Translations under genes and position numbers: made by a program
Notes under the pieces: model-generated
The model's database searches: none
Told to the model about the DNA's origin: nothing
The model's input: only the letters and a program-made list of their open reading frames with translations
Shown: one piece after another, positions 31,994 to 35,847 of the stretch
Layout of the letters: each line of letters opens with the position of its first letter
Position numbering within the stretch: position 1 is the first letter of the stretch
Origin: Bacteriovorax stolpii
Lineage (GTDB): Bacteria > Bdellovibrionota > Bacteriovoracia > Bacteriovoracales > Bacteriovoracaceae
NCBI GenBank assembly: GCA_945905815.1
Contig: CAMDQH010000020.1
Span: forward strand, 1 to 43,369
DNA length: 43,369 nt
Direction: 5' to 3'

Positions 31994-32824
31994 ATGACGC
32001 ATTTATATTTTATTATGTTACTGAGTATTTCGATCAGCTTTGCTGTTTGCAATGAGAACACTTCCGCTGAAGTGATCAAATCAGTGAAACTAAATGGATT
32101 TATATGCACTAAGCAAATTCTATTAGGCTGCTCCTATACAGAATGTTCAGGAAATCTCGGAACCTACCCGAAGCCTGTGCTGATTACGATTCCTGAAAGA
32201 GTTGATTCATTAAGACTGCACTTTCATGGCCATATTTTGGGCACCCCCACTTCTAAACCTTATGAAGGCAACCTTTCAAGTATGACCAAGGCATTTGGGA
32301 TTCAAAAAAGTTTATGCGAAACTTCTGAGGTTACCGTTTTCCCGCAAAGCACCGGGGCCAACACAACCTATAAAGGTTTTTTCACAAGCGACAATTCCTA
32401 CACCCAATTTTTTGGGGACATCCAATCCACTCTAGGCAATAACCTCAAAGATTTTCCTCTTCATTTATCTGGTCACTCGGGAGGAGGAAAATATGTTGCA
32501 GGAGCATTAAATGCTGGAATTAAAACTGCAAAGGTAAGTATCTTTGATGGAATCTACGGCTCTACAACAAAAGACTCCCTTAAGGCCTGGTACGATCAAG
32601 GAAATGGAAAGTTAATAATTGGTGCGGTGAAAGATGGAGCACCAGATAATTATGCGACTCAGTTAAGAAATGAAGTTGGAGCTAGGTTTACTTCAACCAA
32701 GAGCACGATCAAAGGAACAATCTATGATGTTCGTAAAAGTGATCGCTTCACTCACTACACAAGGGCATACTCTAATACCGCCCATTTCAACACAGTGACT
32801 GAAATTTGGCCTAGTGGAAATTAA
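31994..32824 (+). CDS. Secreted alpha/beta-hydrolase
   Basis: 276 aa from the ATG at 31994, which has AAGGG upstream and begins a signal peptide (MTHLYFIMLLSISISFAVC); an ORF start at 31904 would put 30 polar residues ahead of it. Seen: RLHFHGH, an oxyanion-type strand near 75-80; nucleophile elbow LSGHSGGGKY (Ser162); a strand VSIFDGIYG that may place the acid; late His candidates His254 and His264. The elbow sequence fits lipase/esterase-fold enzymes. Several Cys residues near the N-terminus (CTKQILLGCSYTEC) suggest disulfides. Substrate unknown; the protein is likely exported and may act on prey or environmental esters. Its stop overlaps the convergent ABC exporter stop by 4 bp. Confidence 0.75.
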   Translation: MTHLYFIMLLSISISFAVCNENTSAEVIKSVKLNGFICTKQILLGCSYTECSGNLGTYPKPVLITIPERVDSLRLHFHGHILGTPTSKPYEGNLSSMTKAFGIQKSLCETSEVTVFPQSTGANTTYKGFFTSDNSYTQFFGDIQSTLGNNLKDFPLHLSGHSGGGKYVAGALNAGIKTAKVSIFDGIYGSTTKDSLKAWYDQGNGKLIIGAVKDGAPDNYATQLRNEVGARFTSTKSTIKGTIYDVRKSDRFTHYTRAYSNTAHFNTVTEIWPSGN

Positions 32825-34533
32825 TCTCGTTGAGATAGCTCAAAAAGTTTTTTATATTCACCGTTTTTAGCAATCAATTCAGAGTGACTTCCCTCTTCGA
32901 TTTTTACACCATCTTTCATGACTACAATGCGGTTAAAGTCTTTCAGAGTTGAAAGTCTATGAGCAACAGCGATAACTGTTTTATGGCCAGCTACACGTTC
33001 TAATGCCTGCTGTACAATTTTCTCAGATTCATTATCTAATGCCGAGGTGGCCTCATCAAAAAGTAACACATCTCGGTTTTTCAAAAAAGCGCGGGCAATA
33101 GTGAGGCGCTGACTTTGGCCACCCGAAAGACGCATCCCTCGATCTCCAATAGATGTTTCCAGTTTTCCAGGCAAATCTTTTACAAATTCCCAGGCATAGG
33201 AGATCTCTAGAGCGTGCATGATTTCTTCATCAGTATGAATGTCACCACTTGTGAGATTTTCTCTAATGGTATCGTTAAAGAGAAAAATATCCTGACTAAC
33301 CAGACCAAATACTTTTCGAACAGAAGAAAGGCTATATTCGTTAATATTCACGCCATCAATAAGAATAGCACCATCGATTACGGGATAGAGCCTTAGCAAC
33401 AAACTGACCAGTGTAGATTTACCTGAACCGGAAAGTCCTACCAGCCCGATCTTTTCACCTTTATTGATTAAAAGATTAAAACCTTTTAGAACCGTTCCCT
33501 CGCCATAGGAGAATGTAACATTTTTAAATTCAATCGTTTTATCGAAAGCTTTGAGTTCTGTAAGACTATCTTCTAACTCTTCTTTCACTTCTAATAAACC
33601 AAAAATCCTAGTAGCTGCAGCTTGCGCTTGATTCAGTTTAGCATTGGCCTTACTAAATCTTCTAACTGGATCCATAAACATCGCCAGCGCCGCAACAAAT
33701 GAAAGGAAGCCACCGGTCGTAAGGGCCCCTATAGACATTCGGTGATGGGCAAAAACGATGACACCAGCAAATGCAAATGAACCAATCAATTCGACTAATG
33801 GATGAGATATCTCCTCGGCTGAGTTACTCTTCATTCGGTGTGAAAGAAAACGTCTTTGAGCCTTCTCGAAACGCTCAACAATATATTCTCTCAACCCAAA
33901 AGCCTTAATGATTTTCTGTCCACCTAAAGCTTCACTCACAATATGAGTCATTTCAGCATTTTCTTGTTGGGCCTTTCCGACATATTTTCGAATTCGTTTA
34001 CCCGAATAGTGCAACGTAATCATAAAAAGTGGAGCCGTCGCAAAAATAATTAATGTTAATTGCCAATCATGATAAAAAGCTACCCCTAGCAGAGAGATAG
34101 CTGTAATTGGTTCACGTATGACTTCCAAGGAGTTTTTGAAGGCTTCAGAAAAAACCATCGTATCACTCATGATGGTAGATATAAGATTGCCCTGCTTTTG
34201 CTGAGAATAATATTTGGCGGGTAGATGTTGAAATTTCTGATAAATTCGGGCACGAATCAAACGAGTTGATTTATCAACCACCTGTCGGAGCCCAAAATAA
34301 TGAAAGTATCGTAAAGGAAAGTTAAGAATCCCTAGTCCAACCAGCAATGCTGCCAGTTTCCAGGCATCGTCAGAAGTAGAACCAGCGGCAAAACCTTTAT
34401 CAAAAATATCCCTCACAAGGAATGCTTCATAGGCCTTGATAGCAGCAAGAGGAAAGGCCAAAAGGGTAGCGAATACAGCTTCCTTCCAAAATGGCCGAAG
34501 ATATGGGAACATTAACTTGAGAACGTTGATCAT
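32821..34533 (-). CDS. ABC exporter, MsbA-like (half-transporter)
   Basis: 570 aa: six-helix type 1 exporter domain (about 1-310) plus ATPase. Seen: coupling and membrane region with QGNLISTIMSDT, Walker A GLSGSGKSTLVSLLLR, Q-loop GLVSQDIFLFNDTI, signature LSGGQSQRLTIARA, Walker B VLLFDEATSALD and switch His in AVAHRLSTL. Length and sequence fit MsbA-type lipid A flippases (about 580 aa), but drug or peptide exporters of the same fold cannot be excluded. Good ribosome site AGGATATTC. Divergent from gmhB, a heptose gene for lipopolysaccharide core, with only 34 bp between their starts, which favours an LPS role. Confidence 0.9.
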   Translation of the reverse strand: MINVLKLMFPYLRPFWKEAVFATLLAFPLAAIKAYEAFLVRDIFDKGFAAGSTSDDAWKLAALLVGLGILNFPLRYFHYFGLRQVVDKSTRLIRARIYQKFQHLPAKYYSQQKQGNLISTIMSDTMVFSEAFKNSLEVIREPITAISLLGVAFYHDWQLTLIIFATAPLFMITLHYSGKRIRKYVGKAQQENAEMTHIVSEALGGQKIIKAFGLREYIVERFEKAQRRFLSHRMKSNSAEEISHPLVELIGSFAFAGVIVFAHHRMSIGALTTGGFLSFVAALAMFMDPVRRFSKANAKLNQAQAAATRIFGLLEVKEELEDSLTELKAFDKTIEFKNVTFSYGEGTVLKGFNLLINKGEKIGLVGLSGSGKSTLVSLLLRLYPVIDGAILIDGVNINEYSLSSVRKVFGLVSQDIFLFNDTIRENLTSGDIHTDEEIMHALEISYAWEFVKDLPGKLETSIGDRGMRLSGGQSQRLTIARAFLKNRDVLLFDEATSALDNESEKIVQQALERVAGHKTVIAVAHRLSTLKDFNRIVVMKDGVKIEEGSHSELIAKNGEYKKLFELSQRD

Positions 34534-34567
34534 GTGAATATCCTAGTCCTTAACGGAGGCCAAGTAA

Positions 34568-35086
34568 ATTAAAACACGGAAAGCTATCTTCCTCGACCGC
34601 GATGGGACTTTGATTTTAGATAAGAATTATCTCTCTCACGTTGATGATATTGAATATTTCCCCGATACCATGAAGGCATTGCACCTATTCCAGGAAATGG
34701 GATATGAGCTTTTTGTAGTTACGAATCAATCCGGTGTTGGTCGAGGCTATTTTTCGCTTGAAGCAGTTTATGTTATCCACCGCCAGCTCCAAAATGATCT
34801 TCGTGAAAACAAACTCCATCCATTCAAAGATTTTGCCATTTGCCCACATACCCCAGATGAAAAGTGTCATTGCCGCAAACCTTCGGGACAAATGATCCAA
34901 GAACTCATTGAAAAATATCATATTAATCTGAAACATTCATACATGGTGGGTGACAAAATCATTGATGCTGAATCGGGACACAATGCAGGAATCAATGGCA
35001 TTTTGGTTAGGCAGGTCCATAAATCAGACTTTCCGTATTACAAAACTCTACTTGATTTTGCGAATCATCTCAAAAGCAACCCATAA
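34568..35086 (+). CDS. gmhB: D-glycero-D-manno-heptose-1,7-bisphosphate 7-phosphatase GmhB (ATT start)
   Basis: 172 aa if started at ATT 34568. HAD-family phosphatase of LPS heptose synthesis. Seen: the catalytic motif I KAIFLDRDGTL (nucleophile Asp at bases 34595-34597) lies upstream of the first ordinary start (TTG 34610), so that shorter ORF would be inactive. An in-frame TAA at 34565 blocks extension; between it and motif I no ATG, GTG or TTG occurs, but GGAGG (34555-34559) stands 8 nt before ATT, giving a typical N-terminus (M)KTRKAIFLD. Further motifs: VVTNQSGVGRGYF, CPHTPDEKCHCRKPSG (zinc-type loop typical of GmhB) and MVGDKIIDAESG. Overlaps recO convergently by 22 bp. Function is secure, start codon strongly suggested. 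Confidence 0.85.
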   Translation: MKTRKAIFLDRDGTLILDKNYLSHVDDIEYFPDTMKALHLFQEMGYELFVVTNQSGVGRGYFSLEAVYVIHRQLQNDLRENKLHPFKDFAICPHTPDEKCHCRKPSGQMIQELIEKYHINLKHSYMVGDKIIDAESGHNAGINGILVRQVHKSDFPYYKTLLDFANHLKSNP

Positions 35087-35847
35087 GACTTGAGTTCAAC
35101 TGGCCGAAGCTGAAAGTGATGGCAAAAAAATTGAATGAGCTTGTCCGCTTCCTGAAAATTCGTTCCAGTTAATTCCAAATAATCCTGATATTTCGTTTGA
35201 TAACCTTTTTTAATTCGAAGCAAAAATCCCTTTTCATTTTCTGCACTCACGCACTGAGTGCAGGAAAATTGCCCATTGGCCGGAAGAAAAGTAACCCCGG
35301 GTGAATCCATTAATGTTGTCCCACAATAAGAACAATTATCCGTCTCCGGCATAATTCCTAAGTGAAAAAGCAGCTTGATCATAAAAAGTGATAAGTGTTG
35401 ATGGGCAATGAATTCTTCTTTCTTCAAAGAATCATTTAAGTGGAAAAGTGCATTACTAATTACTGAGAAAATCCCTTCATGTTCCATATTTTCATAATCA
35501 CTGGTGTTAACCTGGAAGTTGAGTGAAAACTTTTGCAAAATCTCAAGATACAAACACACAAGATAAAAGGCCTGGATATTGTGACGAATAAGTTGTGGTT
35601 CCCAGAGTCTGCTAGTCTCACTCGCCATCATTAACTCGTTACCTTCAATTTTGCCGGCGCGTTGTTCTTTAATTTGAATTTTGACCATGGAGCCGATTTC
35701 AAAAATGGTTGGCTTGTGATGTTTGCCACCACCTTGGCCGCCGTAAATATAGAAACTACCCATCATCCCATTTCGCATGAGAAGTTTAACGATCAGATCT
35801 CGCTCTTTGTAGGGGACTTTGTGAATGACTACGCCTTCAAAAACCAT
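35065..35847 (-). CDS. recO: DNA repair protein RecO
   Basis: 260 aa, family-typical. RecO anneals SSB-coated DNA and with RecR loads RecA. Seen: N-terminal OB-like region GVVIHKVPYKERDLIVKLL with the GSFYIYGGQGGG loop; helical middle; four-Cys zinc motif CSYCG...CTQC; and a C-terminal basic helix. The N-terminal domain is less conserved than usual, so the name rests on order of domains and the zinc motif. The start overlaps the helicase-like gene by 19 bp, implying co-translation; the 3' end overlaps gmhB on the other strand. Confidence 0.82.
   Translation of the reverse strand: MVFEGVVIHKVPYKERDLIVKLLMRNGMMGSFYIYGGQGGGKHHKPTIFEIGSMVKIQIKEQRAGKIEGNELMMASETSRLWEPQLIRHNIQAFYLVCLYLEILQKFSLNFQVNTSDYENMEHEGIFSVISNALFHLNDSLKKEEFIAHQHLSLFMIKLLFHLGIMPETDNCSYCGTTLMDSPGVTFLPANGQFSCTQCVSAENEKGFLLRIKKGYQTKYQDYLELTGTNFQEADKLIQFFCHHFQLRPVELKSYGLLLR

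Follow-up and report, generated by a model that had tools for sequence, protein, structure and literature searches.

A GmhB-like phosphatase gene of Bacteriovorax probably starts translation at a conserved AUU codon

The gene for a GmhB-like HAD-IIIA phosphatase (positions 34568..35086, + strand) in the window analyzed here, a stretch of 43,369 nucleotides of Bacteriovorax DNA, very probably opens at a putative ATT initiation codon (34568..34570, + strand), from which 172 codons can be counted to the stop codon TAA at 35084-35086. We propose that translation would begin at this AUU, positioned by a GGAGG Shine-Dalgarno sequence within an unstructured and probably very short leader, and that the product would be a 172-residue GmhB-like phosphatase with its active site intact. 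The near-cognate codon would in turn hold synthesis to a fraction of the AUG level and render it sensitive to IF3, as in E. coli infC and pcnB. We assign this explanation as a whole, AUU start together with IF3-sensitive attenuation, a probability of roughly 0.8; taken by itself, IF3-sensitive attenuation of GmhB-like synthesis would be about an even bet.

Read directly, positions 34550-34612 are TTAACGGAGGCCAAGTAA-ATT-AAA-ACA-CGG-AAA-GCT-ATC-TTC-CTC-GAC-CGC-GAT-GGG-ACT-TTG. The GGAGG (34555..34559, + strand) lies 8 nt 5' of the ATT, exactly where a preliminary description of this DNA had placed it, and an in-frame TAA (34565..34567, + strand), also pointed out there, blocks any start further 5' in the same frame. 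HAD motif I, FLDRDGT (34589..34609, + strand), contains Asp10 (codon 34595-34597) and Asp12 (codon 34601-34603), which we take to be the nucleophile and the general acid of the motif, respectively. Both codons are 5' of the first in-frame canonical start codon, a TTG (34610..34612, + strand) that follows motif I and is unconserved as a start; the earlier claim that motif I, given as FLDRDGTL, is encoded 5' of the first ATG, GTG or TTG is therefore correct. In the list of open reading frames, the frame beginning at this TTG comprises 158 aa without motif I, whereas translation from the ATT gives a 172-residue product with the N-terminus (M)KTRKAIFLDRDGTL. Because the first canonical codon lies 3' of motif I, gene callers limited to canonical starts would lose the catalytic Asp, as the preliminary description had anticipated. 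The locus thus combines a near-cognate codon and a Shine-Dalgarno sequence at the start of a conserved protein with the absence of any usable ATG, GTG or TTG.

The longer form also fits the protein family better, as it outscored the 158-residue form on all three GmhB-type models (for PRK08942.1, 146.5 vs 124.7 bits). The name gmhB, used in the preliminary description, holds in part. The nearest solved structures include 3l8e (E 3.5e-22; alignment from residue 3), which we take to be E. coli GmhB, and alignment to 3l8e/2gmw matched both the DxD of motif I (FLDRDGT) and the loop CPH...C.CRKP, a Cys/His loop that is presumably the zinc loop. On the other hand, the curated GmhB-specific cut-offs were missed for PRK08942.1 (146.5 vs 178 bits), TIGR00213 (122.3 vs 149.6) and NF050049 (109.6 vs 250), so the protein is better named GmhB-like; the HAD-IIIA and histidinol-phosphatase-type cut-offs were passed (TIGR01662, 115.1 vs 44.6; TIGR01656, 137.5 vs 84.15). 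The window genome contains one match to the GmhB-like protein. It also contains GmhA above its cut-off (214.5 vs 209.45) and a match to RfaE domain I slightly below its own (329.4 vs 345), which together make a heptose route plausible.

Conservation of the start was assessed in 26 Bacteriovorax-type genomes, 24 of which carry an orthologue (the window genome and 23 others, at 71-85% identity), while one (G018) lacks it and one (G014) has only a distant relative. At the aligned start column, ATT is found in 21/24 loci, ATG in two (L014 and L019) and ATC in one (L024), and TAA occupies position -3 in all 24. Pairwise codon identity is 0.91 at this column, compared with an average of 0.44 across 100 conserved columns and 0.36 to 0.64 at the six further columns with a conserved Ile; only columns 1, 2 and 4 reach 0.8 or more. 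Codon 3 is ACG in 14 loci, ACA in nine and ACT in one, and codon 7 varies among ATT, ATC, ATA, CTA and GTC. From the ATT onward conservation is of the coding type, with 14/14 residues identical between two relatives and nucleotide differences of 0/0/8 by codon position, and across the 24 loci conservation is lacking for every other near-cognate codon 5' of motif I. The conservation of the start column and of the TAA, together with the codon identity of 0.91 against 0.44, makes the AUU almost certainly the initiator; initiation at AUU, as first proposed from the window, is thus strongly supported by comparison, given the ATG at the identical column in two orthologues and the coding-type conservation that begins there. 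Retention of the start codon among relatives exceeds expectation, with the caveat that codons 2 and 4 are constrained too.

These data bear directly on three other accounts of the start. If translation instead began at TTG 34610 or at a canonical codon further 3', the product would be a shorter protein without motif I, such as a degenerate or regulatory homologue; as the first canonical codon in the window's frame, this TTG is the natural candidate, but the column is TTG in only 7/24 genomes and CTC, CTG, CTT, ATT, TTA, ATA or ATC elsewhere, and the residues preceding it, Asp10 and Asp12 included, are under purifying selection, which renders such a start highly improbable. An error in sequencing or assembly, or an ATG-to-ATT mutation private to this genome, might be suspected where the assembly consists of 141 contigs, yet the same ATT column is shared by 21/24 genomes, including G015, a single-contig assembly of 4.15 Mb. 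This sharing refutes the sequencing-error reading, and we regard the chance of either event as negligible. Finally, the window has a 12-codon ORF that runs from a GTG at 34534 to the TAA at 34570-34572, overlaps the ATT start and is unconserved in relatives. Such an ORF could permit ribosomes to begin upstream in another frame and then shift frame, or to reinitiate once it has been translated. Across the genus, however, an ATG, GTG or TTG in an open frame reaches the start in only 5/24 loci (L001, L012, L014, L019 and L024), at differing positions, and most loci have the remaining frames closed at -17 and -7, leaving this account very unlikely as well.

Initiation at AUU does not by itself imply that the weakness of the codon is selected. 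The main caution on this point is a conserved block of about -28 to +11 (34540..34579, + strand), which spans a -10-like hexamer, the Shine-Dalgarno sequence and the start and in which codons 1, 2 and 4 are constrained at synonymous sites. Since codons 2 and 4 share this constraint, a larger DNA or RNA element may account for some of the ATT conservation. Taken further, the ATT could be kept mainly as part of a conserved cis element that also serves the divergent ABC transporter gene, such as a promoter, an operator or a leader RNA, in which case initiation would still be at AUU but the weakness of the codon would be unselected. We consider this a serious though rather unlikely possibility. 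The extent of the block, which takes in synonymous positions in codons 2 and 4, speaks for it, as does the fact that the two genomes with ATG also differ at leader positions such as -22, -19, -16, -6 and -5. Conversely, any third base would suit a role other than that of a start, yet the only exceptions to ATT are ATG and ATC. The divergent gene itself (32821..34533, - strand), named from a reading of its sequence, is in the same place in 24/24 genus loci; on the other side, a convergent gene (35065..35847, - strand) that we take to be recO-like is the downstream neighbor in 23/24 (no match at L014).

The 24 leader bases preceding the start are all identical between G015 and G002 (L011 and L008), a level attained by 9/574 orthologue pairs of these two genomes, for which the median identity is 0.5. 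The leader pattern TTAACGGAGGCYAAGTAA, allowing at most one mismatch, was found in 15/26 genus genomes, in one copy each and always at the gmhB-like gene, while its reversed control gave zero matches in the 26 genomes. Because the leader core was found solely at this gene, we rejected a regulon motif, and the same result argues against a cis element. As for a promoter, a weak sigma-70-type candidate, TTGAGA-16-TATCCT (34517..34544, + strand), would imply a very short leader; it is the one match on the + strand among two in the region, versus 1.8 expected by chance. Its -10-like hexamer is partly and its -35 hexamer poorly conserved across the 24 genus loci, and with the match count at chance level we rejected the promoter as significant.

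A conserved RNA fold is likewise unsupported, which also counts against a cis element. The start region of the window is less structured than its shuffles (z +1.78), 198/200 of which fold at least equally well. A candidate leader hairpin, CTTA-AGC / GCT-AAG, was rejected, as 86.1% of cells were paired compared to a shuffled mean of 84.9%, and 82/500 shuffles were as high; two of its pairs changed on both sides, which was matched by 14/500 shuffles. The RNAalifold consensus of the leader is weak (-3.93 kcal/mol), and an Rfam scan returned two matches, both far below gathering scores.

Returning to AUU as a selected weak start, its history within the genus calls for some care. At least two start-codon changes are required by both a tree of gmhB alone and a tree of a three-gene concatenation, in both of which deep branches are poorly supported. 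Outside the genus, one locus (L025; 49% identity, with the same ABC neighbor at 61%) has an ATG at most one codon away from the aligned position, and the ATT looks genus-specific as judged from this thin outgroup. The two genomes with ATG, whose leaders also differ elsewhere, indicate that the weak AUU start is not indispensable. A second caution comes from ordinary weak starts: a TTG in G015 corresponds to a TTG in G002 in 29/40 pairs, suggesting that weak starts are often preserved in the genus regardless.

The case for IF3-sensitive attenuation is made plausible by infC itself, which starts with AUA or AUU throughout the genus. Among 25 genus loci (L042-L066), one of them cut by a contig end, the start codon is ATA in 23/24 readable cases and ATT in 1/24 (L061), and it is preceded by TGGAGGTGGGTT or CGGAGGTGGGTT. 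The gene, which in the window genome is at C4:24676-25179 (- strand), thus has no canonical start at the conserved site in these loci, and the infC of a sister-genus genome (L256, one of 18 non-genus infC loci) starts with ATT. Because infC starts in this manner, the supply of the phosphatase would be expected to track IF3 and ribosome status.

Conserved AUU and AUA starts are already known elsewhere. The AUU start of E. coli infC underlies IF3 autocontrol (PMC5472188, PMC9410913); the near-cognate start and the expected discrimination by IF3 are shared, but infC encodes the discriminating factor itself, whereas the Bacteriovorax product is a carbohydrate-type phosphatase with a putative IF3 dependence. 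Closer in kind is E. coli pcnB, a gene outside the initiation machinery whose AUU start limits expression (PMC9410913, PMC13009471), although it encodes another protein in other bacteria, and attenuation is reported for pcnB and would only be expected for the gmhB-like gene. In S. aureus grown in poor medium, reporters with AUU and AUA starts yield about 10% of what AUG gives, and the near-cognate starts of cvfC1 (AUU) and ccpN (AUA) are, like the present one, conserved among relatives alongside an infC with AUA (PMC13009471). Extended Shine-Dalgarno motifs and reporter data are available there (PMC13009471), while the Bacteriovorax motif is GGAGG only. Streptomyces sigR has a conserved GTC start that is repressed by IF3 and is similarly miscalled when only ATG, GTG and TTG are considered, but there the annotation begins too far upstream (PMC5472188), in contrast to the truncation that a canonical-only call would produce for the gmhB-like gene. 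Fixed non-canonical starts are also described in six conserved genes of Listeria (PMC13068326).

The Bacteriovorax GmhB-like gene is a further case of this kind. Apart from infC, few genes with a conserved AUU or AUA start turned up in our literature search, and in that search, which covered few subscription papers, no prior description of an AUU start in Bacteriovorax or gmhB stood out. The gene combines genus-wide conservation with two naturally occurring ATG variants that can serve as a comparison, and proteins of this kind are stripped of catalytic residues by callers that consider only ATG, GTG and TTG. Were the regulatory half of the explanation true, an envelope-sugar enzyme would be tied to the fidelity of translation initiation.

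Other non-canonical starts were sought by screening G015 against G002, with 1.2 Mb taken from each, in which 1617 reciprocal best frames were reduced to 801 non-overlapping and then 741 usable pairs. In 76/741 pairs, both genomes show homology that continues for at least seven residues 5' of the first canonical codon; 63 of these 76 were set aside as ordinary, with canonical starts aligned. Among the remaining 13, infC (13/13 residues) and gmhB (14/14) were prominent, and one weaker candidate (17/27), a PrmC-type methyltransferase (TIGR03534, 194.4 bits; cut-off, 199.1), was kept. By sequence comparison, infC and prmC thus appear to be two further convincing non-canonical starts besides the gmhB-like gene. 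As the screen is blind to a non-canonical start wherever both genomes share a canonical codon nearby, the count is a minimum for the sequence covered.

The prmC-type gene (L214-L236) is present in 23/26 genus genomes, and its start column reads ATA in 23/23, including the window genome (C33:10937-11779, - strand), and a stop codon lies two codons upstream of the ATA in 6/23 loci. In all 23, the ATA shares bases with the stop of the preceding gene, read from its sequence as the release-factor-like prfA, giving ATAA in 16 loci and ATAG in seven, and never ATGA; the ATA may be held in place by this overlap. One could speculate that infC (AUA), prmC (AUA) and the GmhB-like gene (AUU) belong to a small group of genes linked by IF3, through which LPS-heptose supply and release-factor modification would vary with IF3 and with the capacity for initiation, so that envelope synthesis would be coupled to translation in growing cells, but we think this improbable.

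A search for pcnB, as a second gene known for an AUU start, gave matches in 24/26 genus genomes, none above the family cut-off. A scan for an unusual initiator tRNA in 60 loci of G015 (1.2 of 4.15 Mb) found 11 tRNA genes, with a Met anticodon in none of them. Lastly, one pair of frames in the two screened genomes (G15|-|21511 and G02|+|94401) shows coding-like conservation upstream of an aligned ATG, with 12/13 residues identical and differences of 1/0/5 by codon position, and a longer N-terminus is possible for these frames.
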